Shown piece by piece: positions 16,707-26,499 of a stretch of 33,438 nt of DNA. The notes beneath the pieces were generated by a model, which saw only the letters and a list, made by a program, of their open reading frames with translations, had not been told where the DNA came from and made no database searches. Numbering within the stretch: position 1 is the first letter of the stretch; each line of letters opens with the position of its first letter. A program made the position numbers and the translations under genes. The stretch lies in the IMG/VR virus record IMGVR_UViG_3300010370_000124, positions 1-33,438 of that record; one strand, written 5' to 3'. Source of the stretch: a virus.

Positions 16707-17255
16707 TCATTCAAAAAATTTCTGAAACTTTTTAACTGCGCCTAATATTTGATTCAAAATACCAGATTGTTGTTTCTCTCCTTCCGTATTTTGAGTGTTT
16801 TGCATAACTCCAGTTGTGTCTACCGACAATGCTCCTACAGAATATGAGTTTGACATGACCGTATTTAAATTCGTGCCTTTAAAGTTTTGAATAGGTGCTT
16901 GAATTGATACTTGTTTTGCGGAATTTATAGTAACTTCACCACTTCCATCCATTGCGACGATTCTAATATTTCTCGCTCTTAAAATTAAATCCCCGGCTAC
17001 TGCTTCAATTATAACATCTCCGTTCTTAGCTTTTATAATTTTTGCAGGTTCTCCTTCATTAACACCTTCACCCACAGTTTCATAGGAAGTTTTTTTACAA
17101 GCGTCGTATTTGTTTCCTTCTTGTGTATATTCAAATCCCTGTCCGTTATCAGTAAATACTGCGTAATCTATTTTTTTACCAGCAATATCTGGCGTTCCGG
17201 ATTTAACAATAAATCCAGGTCTTTTTTCATAATATTCTTTTGGTTGATCCGTCAT
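16707..17255 (-). CDS. Spike-associated beta-helix protein
   Basis: Starting at ATG 17255, which overlaps the gp5 stop as ATGA, the product is 182 aa. (An ATG two codons earlier, at 17261, is less likely.) The N-terminal part is hydrophilic (PKEYYEKRPGFIVKSGTPDI). The centre, about residues 75-125, has short alternating strands with regular turns: GDVIIEAVAGDLILRARNIR, IVAMDGSGEVTINSAK, VSIQAPI. This pattern resembles the intertwined triple beta-helix of T4 gp5 C-terminal needles and VgrG proteins. The C-terminus is helical (ILNQILGAVKKFQKFFE). The likely role is part of the central membrane-piercing spike, encoded apart from the gp5 OB-domain protein. This is inference from pattern and position. 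Confidence 0.65.
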   Translation of the reverse strand: MTDQPKEYYEKRPGFIVKSGTPDIAGKKIDYAVFTDNGQGFEYTQEGNKYDACKKTSYETVGEGVNEGEPAKIIKAKNGDVIIEAVAGDLILRARNIRIVAMDGSGEVTINSAKQVSIQAPIQNFKGTNLNTVMSNSYSVGALSVDTTGVMQNTQNTEGEKQQSGILNQILGAVKKFQKFFE

Positions 17256-19468
17256 ACACAATCCACCACGTTTGCAAATGTACTTATTCCGACTTTTAGA
17301 GTAGGATTATCCACAATATATTGTGGTACATACTCCATAACAGGATAAAGTATAGCTCCTTGTCCCGTGTTAGTATTTATGGAGATAGTAGGATAGGTCA
17401 AAAATTGTTGTTTACAAGAATTTGGTGATGTAAATCCAATAATAGATCCATTTGAAGTCAATATTGGTTCATATATACAATCTCCAACTTCTATAGTATC
17501 TCCAGAAGTATAACCAATACCAGGACCCTCTATTACTATGGAAGTGACAATTCCAACGGGAGTAGTAGAAACTCCAACATTTGTCGATCCCACTCCAACA
17601 GTTGGGGAAGTTGTTCCGATTCCTGTTCCAGGGATTTCTATTCCATTTAGATTTGTTTGACAATATCCATTCCCAGATTCAACTAAGTAAATCGATTCTA
17701 TATTTCCTTTTGAATTAATAGTTGACTTTGCTAGAGCTCCTTTTCCATAATTTGAATTATCTAGTATTGATATTGTGGGGGGTTTAGTATATCCTTTACC
17801 AGGATTTAAAACTTTAATTGTTAGAATAGAACCATCGGAGCTTGATACTACTGGTATTGCTTTTGCATCAATACCATCCCCATTGATGATTACTTCTGGT
17901 GGAATGCATTTGTAGTATTTTACTCCTATGGGCAATATTGGAGCATCTTCTTGTGTAGATGGATTTATTGCTGTTTGTCTACAATTTGTAAATGGAGTAT
18001 CAGCAGATCCAAACATCGAAAGAAATCCGATTGCTTCATCAATATCGTCCCCAAGGCCTCCAAGAATATCAATATTGTTTAAAGTTTGAGCCCATTTATC
18101 TGATTTGGGGAATTTTACACCACCAAAAGGATCCCAAGTGGAAACACCTTTACATGCTAATGCATCACAATCTAAGAAACTTAAAAGTTGTTGAAGAATA
18201 TTAACAGCACCAGTAATTGTTCCTGTAATAGAACTAATTCCTCCTGCTAACCAGTCAAGTCCAGAAAGTATGGTGCTTAAAACCCCATTTATCATGTCTT
18301 CCAATTTCGATATCAGTGCAGCTACCGTTTCTTCAGCTGCACATCTTGGAATATTTGGTGTTTTTCCTACCAATCCATCTAATAGACCAGCAATAAAATC
18401 CATCAAAGGTCCAAATAGTTTTTCAAAGATACAAAAAATAATATTTAAAATATTTTTTGCTGCCTCAGATATTGGAAGTTGAAGTGGAGATGGAATTGTA
18501 ATACCAAGAAGTTTAAATAACTTTCCTACTAATTTAAAGATATTATCACGCATTCCATTGATGACAAATTTCATAATGGATGCAACTAATCTTGCTACTT
18601 TTTTAATTTGAGATCCAACATTTACTACTACGTTTCTTACTGGATCTATAAATCCTAAAGCAGTTTTTTCTAATCCATTTATAAATTTAATAAAACTCTG
18701 TAAAGCAGCGGTTATTTGAGATAAAACATTATTGCCACAACCATTTTCTCCTTGCACTTCTTCAAATTGTCCTAAAAATGCTGCTTCTCCCATTTCATCA
18801 TAAAATAACTCATCTTGAGGTATTTGTTGTTGAGGAAGTAAAATACCTGCTAAATTTGAAGTATCGGTAGATAGTGGTTTGAAATCTGGAGATAACTCTA
18901 TACTTCCTACTGCATCTGTAGCAAATTGTGGATTACTATCCATTGTTACCGCTGGACCACCATCATTAGTAGCAGTTGGTACTTCTTTAGAAACTGCTCC
19001 CTTTGGTACTTTGTTTCTGGTTGCTTGAGCTCCAGTTGCAAATGATCCCTTTACGCCAGTAAAAGGATCAAAAGGATTTGGATTTTTTACATTTACAACC
19101 ATAGGACTTCTATGGAAACAAGCCATTACAACAGGTTGTTGAGCTTCTTCTCCATCTAAGAAAAATCCTAATACAGATTCTCCACCAACAAGAGTTGGCA
19201 ATTTACCAAAACCTCCTTGAGCAGGAGCTCCATCGGCAGCACTAGTTAAAATATGAGCCCAAGGTAAATCTTTATCGGGTAATTCATTTGGACTAAAACT
19301 ATGATATCCAATAATCCTTACTTTACATCTATAACCCCAAGCATCTTTTCCATTATCAATGCGAGTTTTTTCATTACGCCAAACCTTAGGGTCTGCAACT
19401 TGACCGATCCACCATATGAATCCATCTTTGCCAATAAAATTAGATTTTAATAAGGATTCTTCAATCAT
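17252..19468 (-). CDS. 5: gp5-like baseplate central spike protein without lysozyme
   Basis: The 738-aa product opens with the gp5 OB-fold domain: FIGKDGFIWWIGQV (11-24), DAWGYRCKVRIIGYHS (42-57), LPWAHILTSAADG (68-80) and VLGFFLDGEEAQQPVVMACF (99-118). These match the gp5 N-terminus that sits on the gp27 hub. No phage-type lysozyme domain follows, unlike T4 gp5 (575 aa). Instead there is a Pro/Ser/Gln linker, a long series of amphipathic helices (about 245-440) and a C-terminal beta part with GxGY repeats (GKGYTKPPTISI near 557-568, GPGIGYTSGD near 648-657). Its start shares one base with the CP12 stop and its stop overlaps the spike gene, so translation is coupled. Wall-cutting activity is probably supplied by the 584-aa protein upstream. 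Confidence 0.85.
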   Translation of the reverse strand: MIEESLLKSNFIGKDGFIWWIGQVADPKVWRNEKTRIDNGKDAWGYRCKVRIIGYHSFSPNELPDKDLPWAHILTSAADGAPAQGGFGKLPTLVGGESVLGFFLDGEEAQQPVVMACFHRSPMVVNVKNPNPFDPFTGVKGSFATGAQATRNKVPKGAVSKEVPTATNDGGPAVTMDSNPQFATDAVGSIELSPDFKPLSTDTSNLAGILLPQQQIPQDELFYDEMGEAAFLGQFEEVQGENGCGNNVLSQITAALQSFIKFINGLEKTALGFIDPVRNVVVNVGSQIKKVARLVASIMKFVINGMRDNIFKLVGKLFKLLGITIPSPLQLPISEAAKNILNIIFCIFEKLFGPLMDFIAGLLDGLVGKTPNIPRCAAEETVAALISKLEDMINGVLSTILSGLDWLAGGISSITGTITGAVNILQQLLSFLDCDALACKGVSTWDPFGGVKFPKSDKWAQTLNNIDILGGLGDDIDEAIGFLSMFGSADTPFTNCRQTAINPSTQEDAPILPIGVKYYKCIPPEVIINGDGIDAKAIPVVSSSDGSILTIKVLNPGKGYTKPPTISILDNSNYGKGALAKSTINSKGNIESIYLVESGNGYCQTNLNGIEIPGTGIGTTSPTVGVGSTNVGVSTTPVGIVTSIVIEGPGIGYTSGDTIEVGDCIYEPILTSNGSIIGFTSPNSCKQQFLTYPTISINTNTGQGAILYPVMEYVPQYIVDNPTLKVGISTFANVVDCV

Positions 19469-19680
19469 CAGTCTTCGTAAATTTTACACTCAGCAGCGTC
19501 TGGGTGAGTATCGCAATACAACTCTAATGGAGTTGGGTCATGATCATCTTCTGGATGATTTGATTTATAAGCTTCTAAAGCTTCTAATTCTTCTTGAGTA
19601 TGTCTTCTCGCTTGTGGAGAAGTAACTGGATTGTCTAGGATTTCTTTATCCTTTGCAATATGTTCGTCGATGTTTTTCAT
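19468..19680 (-). CDS. cp12: CP12-type regulator of the Calvin cycle
   Basis: The 70-aa protein ends with the CP12 signature PLELYCDTHPDAAECKIYED, in which C56 and C65 have the canonical C-x8-C spacing. In cyanobacteria CP12 is an intrinsically disordered protein. Its C-terminal disulfide binds GAPDH, and with PRK it forms an inactive complex that stops carbon fixation. The N-terminal cysteine pair is absent, as in many marine forms, and the usual AWD-VEEL core is only partly kept (QEELEALEAY, 29-38). Phage CP12 is thought to shut the Calvin cycle and favour the pentose-phosphate route for nucleotide synthesis. Unusually, the gene sits between gp27 and gp5 and overlaps both (ATGA at its start, a shared base at its stop). 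The call rests on the C-terminal motif and length. Confidence 0.8.
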   Translation of the reverse strand: MKNIDEHIAKDKEILDNPVTSPQARRHTQEELEALEAYKSNHPEDDHDPTPLELYCDTHPDAAECKIYED

Positions 19681-20975
19681 TGGTTAGCACCGTATAATCC
19701 GTAAGAATCTCTAACAAGTTTTAGAGAAGTAACCATTTGTCCACCTTCAAAATGGTGTCTTAACTCTTTAATGAGATAATTACCACTTTGTTCTTCATCT
19801 ACTTCACCAGATTTAGACGCATCAACTTTTTGGAATTGAGCGTATATAATACCACCAGCTTTGAGTTTGATGTTTAATGGCACTACCATATTTAGTGACT
19901 GCGTGAACAACAAATTATATCTTGCAAATGCTTTTGCCATGTCAGTATTATCTCTTCCACTATCTGATGTAGATCCAGAAGAATCGACTATTCCTGTATC
20001 ACTAGTTCTAAATAAAACTCTAGATGGTTTTGTACCAAAGTCTTTTGGATAACCTAGTTTTCCTTGACCACCTAATTTAGACTTTACTTCTTCACTTATA
20101 TTGTAGTCAATACCTTCCACTTTATTTTTATAAAGATCGTAAAAATACGTTACATTTGAATACATTCCCACACGAAGAGACTTCATCAAATCTATATTTT
20201 TTTCAAAATTATAATTTAAAATATTAAAATTATTTTGTGTTACACCTTGTTCAACTACTTGAGTATATGTGTACTTTGGAATGTATTCTTTTGATGTACT
20301 TCCCAGCTGTGTTTTTGTGGAAGAAACTAGTGTGTCAATACTTCTGAAATTAAATCCATCTTTGTTTTCATAAAATAGAAATCCTGAAACACCCTTGGCT
20401 TTTGTTCCGTTTTTACCAGAAGATGATGTTGTTGGTATTCCTTTAGGCCCTAACCAAGTCAATACATGGAATGGTTTCTTTACTGTACCAATAAAACTAT
20501 AAGAATTTGAGGTTTTTTCTATATTTTCTGATTTATATTTTTTAGTTTTCAAGACATTCTTAAGAATATCTGTAACGTGATCATTAATTGGTTTCTTTTC
20601 ATATTTTTTCTGAACTCTTGCAGTCTCATTTGTCAATGCTTCTCGTGAGACTAAATGTAGAGTAAAAAATTCTTTATTTGAATCTGTAACAATAGAACTT
20701 ACTTTATAGACATACAATCCATAATCTCCATCCAATAAAAATTGACCACTTACAGTTTCAATATCCAATAAAACTTTCTCTCCACCACGAATAGGTAATC
20801 CATTATAAATTGAATATTGTGATGCCACTTGTAAATTCATAGTTACGCATGGCGATAATATATCTTCAAAATAATCACAAAAAACGATTGAATTTGATAA
20901 ATCAATCCTCTTATTACCATCTAAAGATATGATTTCTGCTCTATTAAATTTTAAACCAGTTATAGCTTCTGACAT
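19677..20975 (-). CDS. 27: gp27-like baseplate hub protein
   Basis: At 432 aa it is close to T4 gp27 (391 aa). It begins MSEAITGLKFNRAEIISLDG and carries tail-hub strands such as SNSIVFCDYFEDILSPCVTM (27-46), LPIRGGEKVLLDIE (60-73) and EFFTLHLVSREALTNETARV (102-121). GYLIKELRHHFEGGQMVT-like sequence (NYLIKELRHHFEGGQMVTSL, near 401-420) closes the second tube-like domain. gp27 forms the trimeric ring that carries gp5 and joins the tail tube. Position immediately before gp5 (separated only by the CP12 gene) and after the large hub proteins agrees with this. Residues about 175-195 form a Ser/Gly/Lys insertion. The family is assigned by architecture and context, since sequence similarity to T4 is low. 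Confidence 0.75.
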   Translation of the reverse strand: MSEAITGLKFNRAEIISLDGNKRIDLSNSIVFCDYFEDILSPCVTMNLQVASQYSIYNGLPIRGGEKVLLDIETVSGQFLLDGDYGLYVYKVSSIVTDSNKEFFTLHLVSREALTNETARVQKKYEKKPINDHVTDILKNVLKTKKYKSENIEKTSNSYSFIGTVKKPFHVLTWLGPKGIPTTSSSGKNGTKAKGVSGFLFYENKDGFNFRSIDTLVSSTKTQLGSTSKEYIPKYTYTQVVEQGVTQNNFNILNYNFEKNIDLMKSLRVGMYSNVTYFYDLYKNKVEGIDYNISEEVKSKLGGQGKLGYPKDFGTKPSRVLFRTSDTGIVDSSGSTSDSGRDNTDMAKAFARYNLLFTQSLNMVVPLNIKLKAGGIIYAQFQKVDASKSGEVDEEQSGNYLIKELRHHFEGGQMVTSLKLVRDSYGLYGANQ

Positions 20976-20976
20976 T

Positions 20977-22857
20977 TTATGATGATGATAAGTTTGTTAG
21001 TAACATAGTCTTGAATAAACTATTTAACAATGCACCTTGCGGTGCCGGAGGCATAACTACTGTACCACCACCCCCACCACCGCCAGAAGAAACTACCATT
21101 GGTCTTTGGGAACTTTCTCCAGAAGACATCATCATTGGCATGATAGTGATGGTAGATTGCGGTTGATTATATGAAGGGTATTGTTGTAGTTCCATAGGAA
21201 CAAATTGTTGCATTAGTGATACTGGATTTACCATTGACATATTTTGAGAAGCTTGAATGCTGGCTATCAAAACCTGTCTTTCTAATTCATCTCCAGATAA
21301 TCCTTTTATTTCAGCATCTTCTCTTGCTCTGGAAGCAGCTTCAAAAACTATAGGACTTGAAGTTTCAGTTTTAGTTGAGCCTAACATTCCTCTTAGATTG
21401 TCCGTGGACATTTTGGACAAATCTTGTTTTTGTGGTTGTTGTGTTGCAGGTTGTTGATCAGATTGTTGCATAACTGCGATTGTAGGTTTAGTCCCTTCAA
21501 CAGCTGGTGGAGGAGTTGATTGTTTTATTTTTTCTTTGGGTGTTGATGTTGATCCTATTGCTCCATGAGCAACAAAACCTTTTGTTCCTACAAGTTTACC
21601 ACTAATTCCAAATCCATCTCCACGATCTTTGACATCTTCAACAGGCCAGGGCAATCTTGTTCCATATGGAGCAGCAATATCAATTCCACCGAAAGAACTT
21701 CCCATAGATCTACTTTCATGAGCCTGTTGTTCTTGTTTAATCAAATCCGATAGTTCTCCATCAGAAAGTTTTTGTGATGGTCTAACCCAAACTCCCGCAT
21801 TACTTAATAAAAATGGAACTTTTTTATTAAGTAAAGCTTTTGCAACTTTTAATGCTGCTTCTCTAGCATCTGCTCGTCCTTGAGGTTTTCCATAATTTTC
21901 TTGTGGTCCAATATGAAAATGAGGTCCAGTAGATCTTCCAGTAGAACCTTGTATAAATGTTCCTTCTCCTTCCATAGCAATATCAGGTCCGTATGGAGAT
22001 TGATTTTTTTCCAATTCATCTGCAGCATCTCTAGCTTCTTGTATAGATTGTTCTTCCTCAGTCACCATCGTAACTCCACCACTTACTGCATATCTTTCAA
22101 AATTAATTACTACATTTTCAAATTTGTTTAAAACTTCTGGGAGTGTTAATTGGGTTGCACTTGCTGCAAGTGCCTTTTGTTTTTGTTCTTGTTTTTTTAA
22201 ACGTTCTTTTGTTTTTTCCTTTACCGATTTGTTTTCTCCTGTTGCAGTTTCATATCCTCTGTCCGCTAAGTAACCTCCTAAGAAATTACCTGCCATACTT
22301 CCAACAACAAATCCCAATCCAGGAACTGGAATTAACGCTTGACCTATCGCACCACCTAATAAAGATCCTGCGAGGGCTCCACCAGCTCCAGCAGCTGCTT
22401 TGCCTGCTGATTCTCCTTCAGCGAGACCAGTAGCAAAATCTAACCCAGCAAAAATTGCATTCGCAATTCCTAATGCCTTAAGTCCCCCTAATTTGACCAT
22501 TGGACCCTTAGAAGGAACTACTTTTGGAGGTTTTGCACTCTTAGATCCTCTTCCTCCACCAAACATATTTCCAATTAATCCAGCAGCATCAAGAGCACCA
22601 TCTGCAATAGCAGATAGTAAATTTCCGGGTCTACCAAAAGTAGAAGCTACATTAATATTTGCAATTTCATTTAACTTTCTTTTTTTAGGTAATTTAATGG
22701 CTTGAAGATTTTTAACTTCAATATCCATAAAGCTCAAAAATCCTTGGAAGGATGATTGAGTGTTTCTCATTGTAGATGCAGTGCGTCTAATTGGAACTAT
22801 ATTGTTTAAAGCTCCGAATATTGGCGATGAAGATAAGTACGTTTTCTTTTCAGCCAT
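20977..22857 (-). CDS. Baseplate hub or tail protein with permuted, degenerate M23-like motifs
   Basis: The 626-aa product has an amphipathic N-terminus and two Gly/Ala-rich hydrophobic stretches (about 122-148 and 155-198; AGSLLGGAIGQALIPVPGLG) that could interact with membranes. A Lys/Glu helix follows (203-232). STGPHFHIGP (309-318) resembles the last motif of lysostaphin-type M23 peptidases, GGIDIAAPYGTRLPWP (390-404) the first, and FVAHG (428-432) an inner strand. The order is therefore permuted. The first zinc-ligand His is Phe389, while Asp393, His313 and His315 are kept. The rest is Gln/Pro/Ser-rich, ending with an 8-Gly run. It lies between gp27 and the muramidase protein, so a cell-wall-contacting hub or tape-measure-associated role is likely. 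Peptidase activity is doubtful. Confidence 0.65.
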   Translation of the reverse strand: MAEKKTYLSSSPIFGALNNIVPIRRTASTMRNTQSSFQGFLSFMDIEVKNLQAIKLPKKRKLNEIANINVASTFGRPGNLLSAIADGALDAAGLIGNMFGGGRGSKSAKPPKVVPSKGPMVKLGGLKALGIANAIFAGLDFATGLAEGESAGKAAAGAGGALAGSLLGGAIGQALIPVPGLGFVVGSMAGNFLGGYLADRGYETATGENKSVKEKTKERLKKQEQKQKALAASATQLTLPEVLNKFENVVINFERYAVSGGVTMVTEEEQSIQEARDAADELEKNQSPYGPDIAMEGEGTFIQGSTGRSTGPHFHIGPQENYGKPQGRADAREAALKVAKALLNKKVPFLLSNAGVWVRPSQKLSDGELSDLIKQEQQAHESRSMGSSFGGIDIAAPYGTRLPWPVEDVKDRGDGFGISGKLVGTKGFVAHGAIGSTSTPKEKIKQSTPPPAVEGTKPTIAVMQQSDQQPATQQPQKQDLSKMSTDNLRGMLGSTKTETSSPIVFEAASRAREDAEIKGLSGDELERQVLIASIQASQNMSMVNPVSLMQQFVPMELQQYPSYNQPQSTITIMPMMMSSGESSQRPMVVSSGGGGGGGTVVMPPAPQGALLNSLFKTMLLTNLSSS

Positions 22858-22859
22858 TG

Positions 22860-24614
22860 TTAATCTACTAAGTTATATACCATTTTTGAATATAATGTAA
22901 GAAAATTATCATGATTGGTAGGCGTTAAAAATGGAACAGAGGCTCCACCTTTACTTAAGATTGGTGGAGCTGCAACTTGTGAACCCACGGGAGTTGATTG
23001 AGTTTGTGGAGATGACACATTCAAAGGAATTACATTCACTTGTGGTTTTGATTGTGTCGGAGGTGGTTGTGCAACTTTCTGTGCAACCTGTTGTTGAGTG
23101 GTTGCTTGTGTTGTTGCAGGAGTAACTTTGGGTGGTGTCGTTTGTGCAGTTGCAACTGGTTTATTTCCACCACCTCTGATATTTTTTAGTTCTGATATAG
23201 TTTGTGCATAAGTTTTATGGGCTTTATTACCACTTTTATATTGATCTTGATATGTGAGATCTGCCGTACCACCGAGTTTTGCAGCATTAATTTGTCCTTG
23301 GGGAAGACCTCTCCACGTTGGAGAAAGTTTCTGTAAGAATTGTTCTTCTGTTATTTGGCCACCCAAAAACTTATCTAGTGAATGACCTTTTCTAAGTTCA
23401 TTCAAAGTTATTGCATCTTGAACTTCAGGAGTAAATTTAGTATTTGCATCAAATCCTGCTCTCTTTGCTCTCTCTAAAAGATATTGTGGCATTTGTTGAT
23501 ATCTGCCAATTGCTCCTTTTGCATTTTTAGCTAACCAGCCAATAGTTTTTTCAGTTGCTTTACCTGGAGTTTTTCCTGCACTTGTATTAAAACTATCATA
23601 TCCTTCTGGACCCTGTTCTACAGAAGCGATAAGATCTAAAACACCTTTTTCTCCAGTTGTAGTAACTCCTTTAGCACTTTCACCGGGAAGTCCCGTTTTT
23701 TCATTTGTATCTTTTTCTTTTCTTTGTCCAGATCCGGGAGGTGAAGATTGTTTTTTTGCTTGAGTAGAACCTTCAGACGAAGATAATCTTTTGATTGCAT
23801 TATCAAATCTATCTAATATGGCATTAAACCTTTCTAACATTGGGCCACTCAAACCTTCACCACCTGTTGTTTGAACTGATTCTACCTGTTGGTCTCCCCC
23901 AACATCCATCATTCCACTTACAACTTTTGCACCCAACATTCCAGCACCGCCAGCAGCACCAGCCATTCCAATCATCTTTAACATTGATCCTCTAGTGGGT
24001 GCAGATCTTCTTAATGGCCCACCTGGAACATTGACATCAACATCTATTCCAGATCCACCTGGAGCAGCCTTTGGTAAATTTGATAATTGTTCAACAATTC
24101 TTACAATCGTTTGTCTAATTGTCCTTGCAACTTGAAATGTTTCACTAAAAACTTCTTGGAGTGCCTTTAAATTATCTCCAAGTCGTTTTACATTTCTACG
24201 ATCACCCAAAAATTGAATATATCCAATTGCATTTTTGTAGAGACTGATGAAATTTTCAAGGAATCTATTGGGAACATCTCCATCAACAGATTGAAGTTTC
24301 TCTCTATATTCACCAAGCTGGTTTTGGAAATTTTTCTGTATAAATTGTTGTACGTTATTATTAATAGATTGAACTCTATTTTCTACATTATTTAAAATAT
24401 TGCTAGAAAGAGTTTTAATAATGGATCCAAGATCGGGGGGTCTTGGTGCAACCGCCGCAGCACCACGTTGAAACCCTACGATTTTATTTGCGGCAGAAGC
24501 AACAATGGAAGTTCCCAGTGGAGCTCCACCTGAAATAAAATTCATTGCACCAGCAATTGATGCAGGTCTTTCTGCAACTCCTACACCTGGATTAATTGCT
24601 GGTTTAATTGCCAC
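22860..24614 (-). CDS. Baseplate hub protein with GH104-like muramidase domain
   Basis: The 584-aa product has a helical N-terminal half (60-180), a hydrophobic Gly/Ala/Met segment (209-238) and a lytic domain at about 320-478. VLDLIASVEQGPEGYDSFN (325-343) holds Glu333 as the probable catalytic acid. AKGAIGRYQQMPQYLLERAK (365-384), FTPEVQDAITLNEL (394-407) and LSPTWRGLPQG (430-440) align by eye with the phage lambda endolysin R and GH104 transglycosylase pattern (GAGRYQ..., F.P..QD..AL...). The tail is Gln/Thr/Pro-rich. The start is GTG at 24614, overlapping the previous gene by 11 bases. It should cut peptidoglycan during DNA injection, replacing the lysozyme missing from gp5. The fold call rests on motifs. 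Confidence 0.75.
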   Translation of the reverse strand: MAIKPAINPGVGVAERPASIAGAMNFISGGAPLGTSIVASAANKIVGFQRGAAAVAPRPPDLGSIIKTLSSNILNNVENRVQSINNNVQQFIQKNFQNQLGEYREKLQSVDGDVPNRFLENFISLYKNAIGYIQFLGDRRNVKRLGDNLKALQEVFSETFQVARTIRQTIVRIVEQLSNLPKAAPGGSGIDVDVNVPGGPLRRSAPTRGSMLKMIGMAGAAGGAGMLGAKVVSGMMDVGGDQQVESVQTTGGEGLSGPMLERFNAILDRFDNAIKRLSSSEGSTQAKKQSSPPGSGQRKEKDTNEKTGLPGESAKGVTTTGEKGVLDLIASVEQGPEGYDSFNTSAGKTPGKATEKTIGWLAKNAKGAIGRYQQMPQYLLERAKRAGFDANTKFTPEVQDAITLNELRKGHSLDKFLGGQITEEQFLQKLSPTWRGLPQGQINAAKLGGTADLTYQDQYKSGNKAHKTYAQTISELKNIRGGGNKPVATAQTTPPKVTPATTQATTQQQVAQKVAQPPPTQSKPQVNVIPLNVSSPQTQSTPVGSQVAAPPILSKGGASVPFLTPTNHDNFLTLYSKMVYNLVD

Positions 24615-24789
24615 GATTTGCTGCCTGTTGTGCCTTTAGGTTTTCTTCTTCAATGTGTTGTTTCAATAGAGTGAGGTAGATATCTCTCTCCCAAGGCATC
24701 ATGTTTTCAATCTCAGTCAAAGAGTATTTATGGAACTGCATGAGAGCAAAGTTAATTCTAAAATATGACTCAAGATCTATATGAGCCAT
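24604..24789 (-). CDS. Small tail or hub assembly protein next to gp26
   Basis: The 61-aa product reads MAHIDLESYFRINFALMQFH, then YSLTEIENMMPWERDIYLTL, and ends with a charged helix. It is all-helical, and the 'FALMQFHKYSLTEIENMMPWERDIY' type of sequence is conserved beside gp26 in T4-like marine phages. It may correspond to a gp51-type hub assembly factor, or act as a small chaperone like the gpG/T products next to tape-measure genes. I cannot decide which from sequence. It starts two bases after the gp26 stop and overlaps the muramidase hub gene by 11 bases. Confidence 0.65.
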   Translation of the reverse strand: MAHIDLESYFRINFALMQFHKYSLTEIENMMPWERDIYLTLLKQHIEEENLKAQQAANRGN

Positions 24790-24791
24790 AA

Positions 24792-25520
24792 TTAGCCGAA
24801 AAAACTTGTTAGACCCTCCAGAGTTACTTCATTTTCAACTTTGGTTTTTGGATTTACAACAGTAAACGTATGCGAAAGTTTTGGCATAGTTTCAAAGAAT
24901 TGTTCAATTTTTTTGAACTGTTCAGCATTCATACTTTCAATAAACTCAATCAATTCTTTTTTGGTACAATCAGAAGCTGCCCAAGCTTCATCGGAAGTAA
25001 AAATAGTTTCAATACACGAAGAAATGATATCAAAAGATCTCTCTATTGTCGATACAGATTCTTGTGTAGTAAAATCAAAATTATTTTTAATGAATTGGTC
25101 TAATGAAGGATACTTCATTTTGATAACAATACTATCATCAAGTTTAATTTCTGAAGTGTGTTCCGAATCTTTTTGAACTTTGATTTCGTCTACATAAATT
25201 TTTGTAGGAACTTCAGTTACACCATCATCAGAACAAGTTACTACTAAATCAATAGATTCGCCAACAGATTTTCCACGAACATTTAAAAAGATATATTCAA
25301 TATCAAAAGAAGGCAGATCTTCTACTTTGATACCTTTTGTGAGTATGCAATCTTTTAGAACAGACTTGATAGCTAGAGTAATTTGTTTTGTGTCTTGACT
25401 CTCCAAAGCCAAGATTAGAACTTTCTCTTCTTTAACTAAAAATGGTCTGTATTTAATTGTTTTTCCTGTAGATGGCAACTCAAGTTCATAAGTTGGAGTC
25501 GCAATTTTTGGTAATGGCAT
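24792..25520 (-). CDS. 26: gp26 baseplate hub subunit
   Basis: The 242-aa protein starts MPLPKIATPTYELELPSTGK and continues with IKYRPFLVKEEKVLILALES. This is the characteristic N-terminus of T4-type gp26 (208 aa in T4; Pfam T4 baseplate protein family). Later conserved parts are SFDIEYIFLNVRGKSVGESI (70-89) and the C-terminal helical region (KKELIEFIESMNAEQFKKIE, about 185-204). gp26 is a hub component needed for assembly of the baseplate centre. It follows the gp54-like gene with a 28-base gap that contains a weak TATAATAT box, and precedes the 61-aa gene directly. Confidence 0.88.
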   Translation of the reverse strand: MPLPKIATPTYELELPSTGKTIKYRPFLVKEEKVLILALESQDTKQITLAIKSVLKDCILTKGIKVEDLPSFDIEYIFLNVRGKSVGESIDLVVTCSDDGVTEVPTKIYVDEIKVQKDSEHTSEIKLDDSIVIKMKYPSLDQFIKNNFDFTTQESVSTIERSFDIISSCIETIFTSDEAWAASDCTKKELIEFIESMNAEQFKKIEQFFETMPKLSHTFTVVNPKTKVENEVTLEGLTSFFG

Positions 25521-25548
25521 TGAATATTATAAAATCAGATAAAATTAT

Positions 25549-26499
25549 TTAGAGTGGTTGAAAAGGAATAGATGAATCACTTCCCCAACTAAAAGAAGGA
25601 TTTGCCAATAAAGAAGGTTGACTTTGACTTTGTGCCCACTCAGGTAAAGTTGCTGAAGAACTAGTAGGTTCTGGTTGTTGAAATTCTGCCTTACCCGTTC
25701 CTTGGTGATTCAGAATTACATATCGATCATAGTTAAATGTAACCGTAGTCTTGGTAATTGTACTTCCTTCATAAGTTACTGGAAGTGCAGTTAATTGAGT
25801 TGGAAATGCATTCACGAAGTAATAAGTTAACATTGAGGGTGTTCTTACAACATCCTTCATTGGACTCATATGGGTATCTCTTTCAAACTTAGTTATTGCC
25901 AATCCTCTTTTATATGTATTTGGATATCTAAATCTGAAGAATTCCCAATCATTAAATCTTTCAGCTCCTCCTTTTGAAGTTCCTTTGGTTGCTCTTCCAT
26001 ATTGATTATAGAGGGGATTGATGAAATTTAACCATTCTTCAAATAGACGAATAATTCCATACTCAGCATCAACATAAAATGTCATTGAAATATCTGGAAA
26101 TTCTCTTCTATTTGGAAATCTTTCAACAACTCCTTGTCTACTTCCAACTTCCTCAAGCATACTAAATGAAGAACCAGGAAGACTGGTTTCATTGCACATA
26201 AATTCATATCGAAGTGAATTTAAATATGCATTGTTGCCGTTGAATAATTCAGAACCAAGAACACCACAAGAAACTAGCCATGCATTAATGTCAGAATCGG
26301 AATTAGTACTTGGGAAAGTGTCACCAAGGTACAAAGTAACTTTAAATTGGCTAGTGACTGACAATTCACCAAAAAGATCTTGAACACTAGGAAATCCAAA
26401 TCTGTTATCGTTGGAATCTCTAGGTAGAGTCATCCTTGTGTAGATAGGATCAACTCTGTATGGATTTTGTGGGTAATCGTCTCTGAATGCCTCAGGCAT
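25549..26499 (-). CDS. 54: gp54-like baseplate tail-tube initiator
   Basis: The 316-aa product has a length close to T4 gp54 (320 aa) and the pattern of tail-tube-fold proteins. SVTSQFKVTLYLGD (47-60) is the first strand pair, NETSLPGSSFSML (103-115) the conserved loop, and RREFPDISMTFYVDAEYGII (131-150) with FEEWLNFINPLY (153-164) the core strands and helix. TITKTTVTFNYDRYVI (248-263) forms the last strand. The last 45 residues are Ser/Pro/Gln-rich and disordered. It initiates tube polymerisation on the baseplate if the gp54 call is right; a gp19-like tube protein is the alternative. It is the first gene of the long minus-strand tail operon and is divergent from gp4. Confidence 0.65.
   Translation of the reverse strand: MPEAFRDDYPQNPYRVDPIYTRMTLPRDSNDNRFGFPSVQDLFGELSVTSQFKVTLYLGDTFPSTNSDSDINAWLVSCGVLGSELFNGNNAYLNSLRYEFMCNETSLPGSSFSMLEEVGSRQGVVERFPNRREFPDISMTFYVDAEYGIIRLFEEWLNFINPLYNQYGRATKGTSKGGAERFNDWEFFRFRYPNTYKRGLAITKFERDTHMSPMKDVVRTPSMLTYYFVNAFPTQLTALPVTYEGSTITKTTVTFNYDRYVILNHQGTGKAEFQQPEPTSSSATLPEWAQSQSQPSLLANPSFSWGSDSSIPFQPL

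Follow-up and report, generated by a model that had tools for sequence, protein, structure and literature searches.

How does a metabolic gene come to lie inside the baseplate hub operon of a virus, and when in infection would it be expressed there? We addressed this question for a cp12 gene in the 33,438-base virus record IMGVR_UViG_3300010370_000124, which is taken over its whole length and hereafter called the window. Among phage metabolic genes cp12 is well known, and its role is commonly placed in nucleotide synthesis during the early to middle part of infection. A sequence-only reading of the window had proposed that this copy is either made late or served by internal promoters. That was the right question, and from the sequence patterns described below the answer is probably both, with an internal promoter of late type.

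The cp12 gene, which encodes 70 amino acids, occupies positions 19468-19680, as had been read, on the minus strand, which had been left unstated; the plus strand at this position holds many stops. Upstream, a gp27-like hub protein (19677-20975, minus, 432 amino acids; phrog_350 tail protein, E = 1e-101) ends in an ATGA over the cp12 start, a 4-nt overlap, and downstream a gp5-like hub/tail lysozyme protein (17252-19468, minus, 738 amino acids; phrog_1922, E = 1.4e-107) starts on the last base of cp12, a 1-nt overlap. Both overlaps, and the locking of cp12 between these two hub genes, are as they had been described. The hub run begins with a gp26-like baseplate hub protein (24792-25520, minus), assigned by synteny with S-T4, DSL-LC02 and S-SM1 and matched in 192/256 sources searched. 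It is followed by a small ORF in the gp51 position (24604-24789, minus), placed by synteny alone, a 584-amino-acid ORF (22860-24614, minus) for which Pfam and PHROG searches gave no convincing family match, and an endolysin-like ORF of 626 amino acids (20977-22857, minus), so called from weak PHROG matches (phrog_12490 lysis, E = 2.7e-6) and synteny. The run comprises ten genes, from gp26 to a 567-amino-acid ORF, and its nine junctions all fall between -11 and +12 nt; tight packing is therefore the rule in the hub operon. Among related records, slot and standalone cp12 taken together, psbA/psbD-type genes were present in 17 of the 20 searched, which marks these records as cyanophages.

The identification of the product as CP12 was borne out by profile matches to Pfam PF02672 (score 52 bits, curated threshold 22.7) and phrog_627 (E = 2.6e-29). 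The gene order gp27-cp12-gp5 recurs in the cultured phages DSL-LC03, S-T4 and DSL-LC02 and in viral contigs; given this conservation and pairwise dN/dS values of 0.02-0.10 (nine pairs computed in the window's clade), cp12 is not a chance ORF and, judged by these ratios, is under strong purifying selection. The available text of PMC3906501 defines classical CP12 by three features, a C-terminal Cys pair, an N-terminal Cys pair and an AWD_VEE core, and for the core it names cyanophages and some cyanobacterial classes as exceptions. The C-terminal pair is present in the window protein (C56 and C65), in 97/99 slot sequences (of the other two, one is truncated at a contig end) and in 39/39 non-slot sequences. 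The N-terminal pair is absent from the window protein, and the first 40 residues are free of Cys in 87/99 slot sequences (the other 12 have one) and in 39/39 non-slot sequences; the AWD_VEE core is found in 0/138 CP12 sequences, that of the window included. Since the N-terminal pair is missing, the window CP12 is of the cyanophage, C-terminal-only type and not the classical form. Its PDB matches center on residues 50-70, the part present in GAPDH-CP12 peptide structures, and Foldseek, run on an AlphaFold model with a pLDDT of 91, returned as its top two PDB entries the CP12-GAPDH structures 6gfo and 6ghl (probabilities 0.95 and 0.92, at E values of only 0.04-0.05). From the sequence and this weak fold match we infer that the window CP12 may bind GAPDH.

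CP12 proteins in the slot vary in their first half. A divergent group scores 48-67 bits with the first profile made here, has about 40% identity to the window protein, keeps an end like LELFCDLNPNALECRIYDD while the first half is changed, and folds alike; Pfam CP12 matched all five members scanned, at 34.1-44.9 bits. Other strongly diverged slot CP12s were seen at loci L190, L200, L201 and L232; in L200 and L201 the spacing between gp27 and cp12 is also longer, at 91-93 nt. At L148 and L150 the first C-terminal Cys is replaced by Tyr and the remaining tail is kept. A single CP12 was found in each of the 20 records searched, and talC in five of them with no pattern of linkage to cp12. A CP12 tree built on 70 columns was mostly unresolved (14/129 inner branches starred) and implied 13 changes of position, only two of them forced by starred branches; it was not used.

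The slot itself had been taken as an unusual place for cp12, a view that did not survive comparison: in cultured marine cyanomyoviruses the gene commonly lies between gp27 and gp5, and a position "near gp5" appears in the available text of Sullivan 2010 (PMC3037559). The gene and its slot position are of a known kind, and the arrangement is neither rare nor unreported. We ran three scans, with the window gp27, with a diverse gp27 alignment and with CP12, taking the best 80 matches of each in lists that overlap. Among the best 80 loci of the window-gp27 scan, 75 carry CP12 between gp27 and gp5, three more extend far enough to show CP12 in the slot, and two stop short of it, giving CP12 in 78/78 close-gp27 loci that reach the slot. 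The best 80 loci of the diverse-alignment scan comprise 43 with an empty slot, 34 with CP12 (by subtraction) and three cut off at contig ends. Those of the CP12 scan place the gene in the slot 41 times and elsewhere 36 times; in L014 and L042 the gene is truncated by the contig end, with gp5 after it, and in L075 (606-3389) CP12 runs in one open frame into a gp5 without its first part, which is either a real fusion or deletion or an assembly chimera. L001, which duplicates part of the window, was left out of all counts, L075 out of the slot counts, and L014, L042, L075 and L088 out of the non-slot count.

Thinning at 95% identity reduced 206 usable gp27 sequences from the listed matches to 142 representatives, a set that includes loci fetched by CP12 and is thereby biased toward presence. 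A comparison of the gp27-gp5 junction in relatives, which the sequence-only reading had proposed, gave a divided answer here: CP12 lies in the slot in 99/142 representatives, and gp27 is joined directly to gp5 in the other 43. The presence or absence of CP12 needs three changes on the gp27 tree, and the best fit is a slot of old date that is empty throughout a single large clade and was lost twice more at a late stage (L196 and L211), on long branches that leave the deep order unsure. Spacing between gp27 and gp5 in the 43 empty loci ranges from -4 to +12 nt and is -4 in 20 of them, as it also is in P-SSM2 and ACG-2014f; Rhizobium phage RL38J1 likewise joins the two genes directly, with a 4-nt overlap. 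Because cp12 and gp5 both begin with ATGA in the window, a start-to-start loss of cp12 would bring gp27 and gp5 together through an ATGA, and L211 looks like such a loss. S-SRM01, whose CP12 is the closest cultured match to that of the window (78.6%), has 3 nt between gp27 and gp5 and carries its cp12 about 42 kb away. In Sinorhizobium phage phiM9 (L269, 4739-6303) the slot holds a homing endonuclease with 4-nt overlaps on both sides.

We then considered which signals could drive cp12. The late promoter of S-PM2 and Syn9 is given as NATAAATA in the available part of PMC2984593. When 7-mers lying 25-37 nt ahead of 2617 distinct predicted starts were ranked de novo by enrichment, ATAAATA (228 vs 5) and CTAAATA (117 vs 3) came first, with TTAAATA weakly enriched (18 vs 4.5). 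The word [AC]TAAATA lies 20-45 nt before gp26 in 80/83 slot-CP12 representatives, and gp26 and gp4, both structural genes, carry this same late-promoter word; in the window, CTAAATA at 25546-25552 (minus), 32 nt upstream of gp26, is the proposed promoter of the whole hub operon. Standalone cp12 genes have the word at 20-45 nt in 32/33 distinct upstream regions, compared with 33/997 other predicted genes in those loci and 213/18134 random ATGs; the S-TIM5 cp12 (L004) is without it. These standalone copies often follow a small ORF of 58-68 amino acids beginning MTL(A/S/P)KT (L017, L021, L025, L031, L032, L037, L046 and others). The P-HM2 cp12 has ATAAATA at 31 nt, in a promoter region that also has TTGACA, and belongs to the middle expression cluster according to the available text of PMC5082946, which means that the word is no proof of late timing. 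The early promoter of its own that the sequence-only reading had weighed for cp12 found no support, as sigma-70-like sites in the window hub region show no excess (31 found, 34.0 expected); a sigma-70 promoter at cp12 was rejected on this chance-level scan.

Slot cp12 genes split according to the room available to them. The adjacent word, at 20-45 nt, occurs in 0/66 loci where gp27 and cp12 are at most 11 nt apart, in 17/33 with a gap of at least 12 nt, and in 0/43 empty loci. In the tightly joined loci a word appears inside gp27: the window has CTAAATAT at 19888-19895 (minus), 215 nt before the cp12 start, where gp27 codons 361-363 (Leu-Asn-Met) hold CTAAATA, and we propose it as an embedded late promoter of cp12-gp5. 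Such an embedded word, 120-300 nt upstream, is present in 57/66 tightly joined, 8/33 gapped and 2/43 empty loci. Within these limits no locus has both forms and 17/99 have neither, L200 and L201 solely because their word lies at 310-315 nt; few variant words were found in the loci with neither form. The exclusion has a Fisher p of 4e-10, indicative only, since relatedness of the sequences inflates all p-values here; widening the limits to 100-300 nt yields one locus with both words. The embedded site belongs mostly to the window's 61-row clade, where the word stands at the same codons in 60 rows; the one row without it, L206, carries CTAAATA 39 nt ahead of cp12, with a gap of 31 nt there. Outside that clade 8/17 tightly joined loci have the word, at various places.

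Leu at the embedded site is CTA in 58/59 sequences (CTA usage 13%), and this column ranks first of 422 in synonymous-choice score (50.6, next 23.0). Its codon changes once on the tree, whereas each of the 22 other conserved Leu columns needs 12 changes or more (median 22). The most frequent codon for Leu, TTA (42% in tightly joined loci), would keep the protein here and lose the word; in the two Ile variants at this position the word persists as ATAAATA. [AC]TAAATA is otherwise avoided about twenty-fold in the gp27 coding bodies of the 142 representatives (3 observed vs 65 expected from synonymous shuffles). The empty loci L196 and L211 keep the embedded word without cp12; the 41-row empty clade has it at the site in 0/41. 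Cultured phages outside the main analysis have one word in 5/5 with slot cp12 (four adjacent, and Sf-FS3 embedded at 241) and none in 6/6 without slot cp12, phiM9 with its endonuclease included; S-SSM7 and S-SCSM2R also carry the embedded word. S-PM2 and S-RIM32, which have no slot cp12, show the weak form TTAAATA 27 nt before gp5. The embedded word lies 215-230 nt upstream vs the usual 25-37 nt, and our claim is therefore that it works like a late promoter, not that it is a typical one. A site embedded in gp27 codons would not be listed by Sullivan 2010, because late promoters were kept there only if intergenic or with 10 bp overlap, according to the available text (PMC3037559).

Further words and locked codons occur in the hub region. 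The window has ATAAATA at 24725-24731 (minus), inside the gp51-position ORF and 117 nt before the 584-amino-acid ORF, as a possible second embedded late promoter, and ATAAATA at 17374-17380 (minus), inside the gp5 3' end and about 120 nt before a 184-amino-acid ORF, as a possible further one. Across representatives, a late-type word is found within about 200 nt upstream of the 584-amino-acid ORF in 50/54 and in the gp5 3' end region in 89/118, the gp5 body holding 10 in 250 kb; these could form a series of late promoters inside the hub operon. In gp27 of the 41-row empty clade (e.g., L175 and L176), Leu at the column of window residue 399 is locked to CTA in 37/38, in the context GGT-CTA-TAT-ATG (CTATATATG) upstream of gp5. 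This is not an evident promoter; CTATATA is weakly enriched before genes (12 vs 4).

Several readings compete with a late promoter serving cp12. The promoter may be real and serve gp5 and the genes downstream, with cp12 a passenger between, which we regard as possible though doubtful: both genes lie downstream of the word, comparable words with no cp12 adjoining precede the 584-amino-acid ORF and occupy the 3' end of gp5, the two recent cp12 losses keep the word, and S-PM2 and S-RIM32 have their weak form before gp5, but the 41-row empty clade is without [AC]TAAATA at the site even though gp5 directly follows gp27, and nearly every standalone cp12 has a word of its own. It is unlikely that cp12 behaves as a middle gene, like that of P-HM2, and that the late-type word does no more than prolong its expression. 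The P-HM2 gene, middle in the available text of PMC5082946 and yet preceded by ATAAATA, is the precedent for this, and against it stand the chance-level sigma-70 count and the use of the same word by gp26 and gp4. Somewhat more improbable still is a hub operon with no internal promoter, in which cp12 is expressed solely by read-through from gp26 and the codon lock reflects RNA structure, recombination or a DNA-binding site. The near-universal gp26 word, the packing of genes without gaps, the odd distance of 215 nt and the locked CTA of the empty clade all fit such an operon; however, the locked word is the same one that is enriched ahead of genes, an adjacent copy takes its place in L206, and the rest of gp27 avoids it.

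The overlaps had also prompted the suggestion that CP12 sets the gp27:gp5 ratio. Ratio-setting is unlikely as a purpose given the empty slots, the 4-nt overlap in RL38J1 and the endonuclease in phiM9, and the hub does not need CP12, because gp27 is joined directly to gp5 in the representatives that do without it. That slot CP12 has been converted to a role in assembling the hub or in setting the ratio is highly improbable: its strict position and the divergent N-terminal half of one group would suit such a role, against which it is the genome's only CP12 in 20/20 records and has kept its C-terminal Cys pair almost throughout. As a candidate ratio-setter or hub part CP12 was rejected on the empty slots and the single copy per genome. 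Mechanical translational coupling of gp27, cp12 and gp5 is plausible. A Shine-Dalgarno duplex energy of -4 or lower is found at 64% of the 28 cp12 starts that overlap by 4 nt, 22% of the 87 that lie at a distance of at least 0, 22% of 2934 internal ATGs, 5% of 43 gp5 starts at distance -1 and 24% of 117 gp27 starts; since gp27 starts also resemble controls, a missing Shine-Dalgarno sequence says little here. The idea that Met363 supplies an internal ATG from which a gp27 fragment is translated was discarded, the residue being Ile in 21/61.

We therefore return to the embedded late promoter in gp27, which on the sequence comparisons above likely makes cp12-gp5 a late sub-unit of the hub operon. 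Late transcription would start inside gp27 and, by read-through, at gp26; cp12 and gp5 would be transcribed together late in infection and translated in turn via their overlaps. The CP12 product, which retains the C-terminal part through which CP12 binds GAPDH, would be expected to bind host GAPDH, and CP12 would hold down the host Calvin cycle during virion assembly. Such an arrangement suggests that cp12 may be used while virus particles are assembled. A broader proposal is that cp12 is tied to a late promoter everywhere in these phages, beside standalone copies, in or near many gaps, and in gp27 codons where the genes are tightly joined, so that Calvin-cycle shut-off belongs to the virion-assembly phase and not only to nucleotide synthesis; we consider the case for it evenly balanced. 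If most cp12 copies are under late-type promoters, the nucleotide-synthesis account needs changing, and the codon-locked word suggests that regulation in densely packed phage operons escapes promoter scans that look only between genes. As far as the literature searched shows, with most subscription papers outside it, the codon-locked late-type word, its exclusion of the adjacent word and its tie to cp12 are new, and among the papers matched there none concerns, by its title or the start of its abstract, this gp27-embedded site.

Known systems place the window as follows. S-SM1, Syn9, S-RIM8, S-RSM4, S-SSM7 and S-SCSM2R have cp12 in the same gp27-gp5 interval and on the same strand, but the slot of cultured cyanomyoviruses mostly contains gaps, cpeT, tRNAs or other genes together with an adjacent word, whereas the window has overlaps on both sides and an embedded word. 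The P-HM2 cp12, from the same phage class, has 61% identity to the window CP12 and a late-type word upstream, yet it stands alone before talC, outside the hub operon, and was measured as middle (available text of PMC5082946), whereas the window gene lies inside that operon. The C-terminal part of cyanobacterial CP12 in complexes with GAPDH (PDB 6gfo, 6ghl, 3b1j and 3zdf) aligns with window residues 50-70; unlike cyanobacterial CP12, the window protein has neither the N-terminal Cys pair nor the AWD_VEE core. Late promoters of T4 type (TATAAATA in T4 and NATAAATA in S-PM2, as given in the available part of PMC2984593) have the same -10 word as the window site, which differs from them in lying inside conserved codons, about 215 nt upstream.
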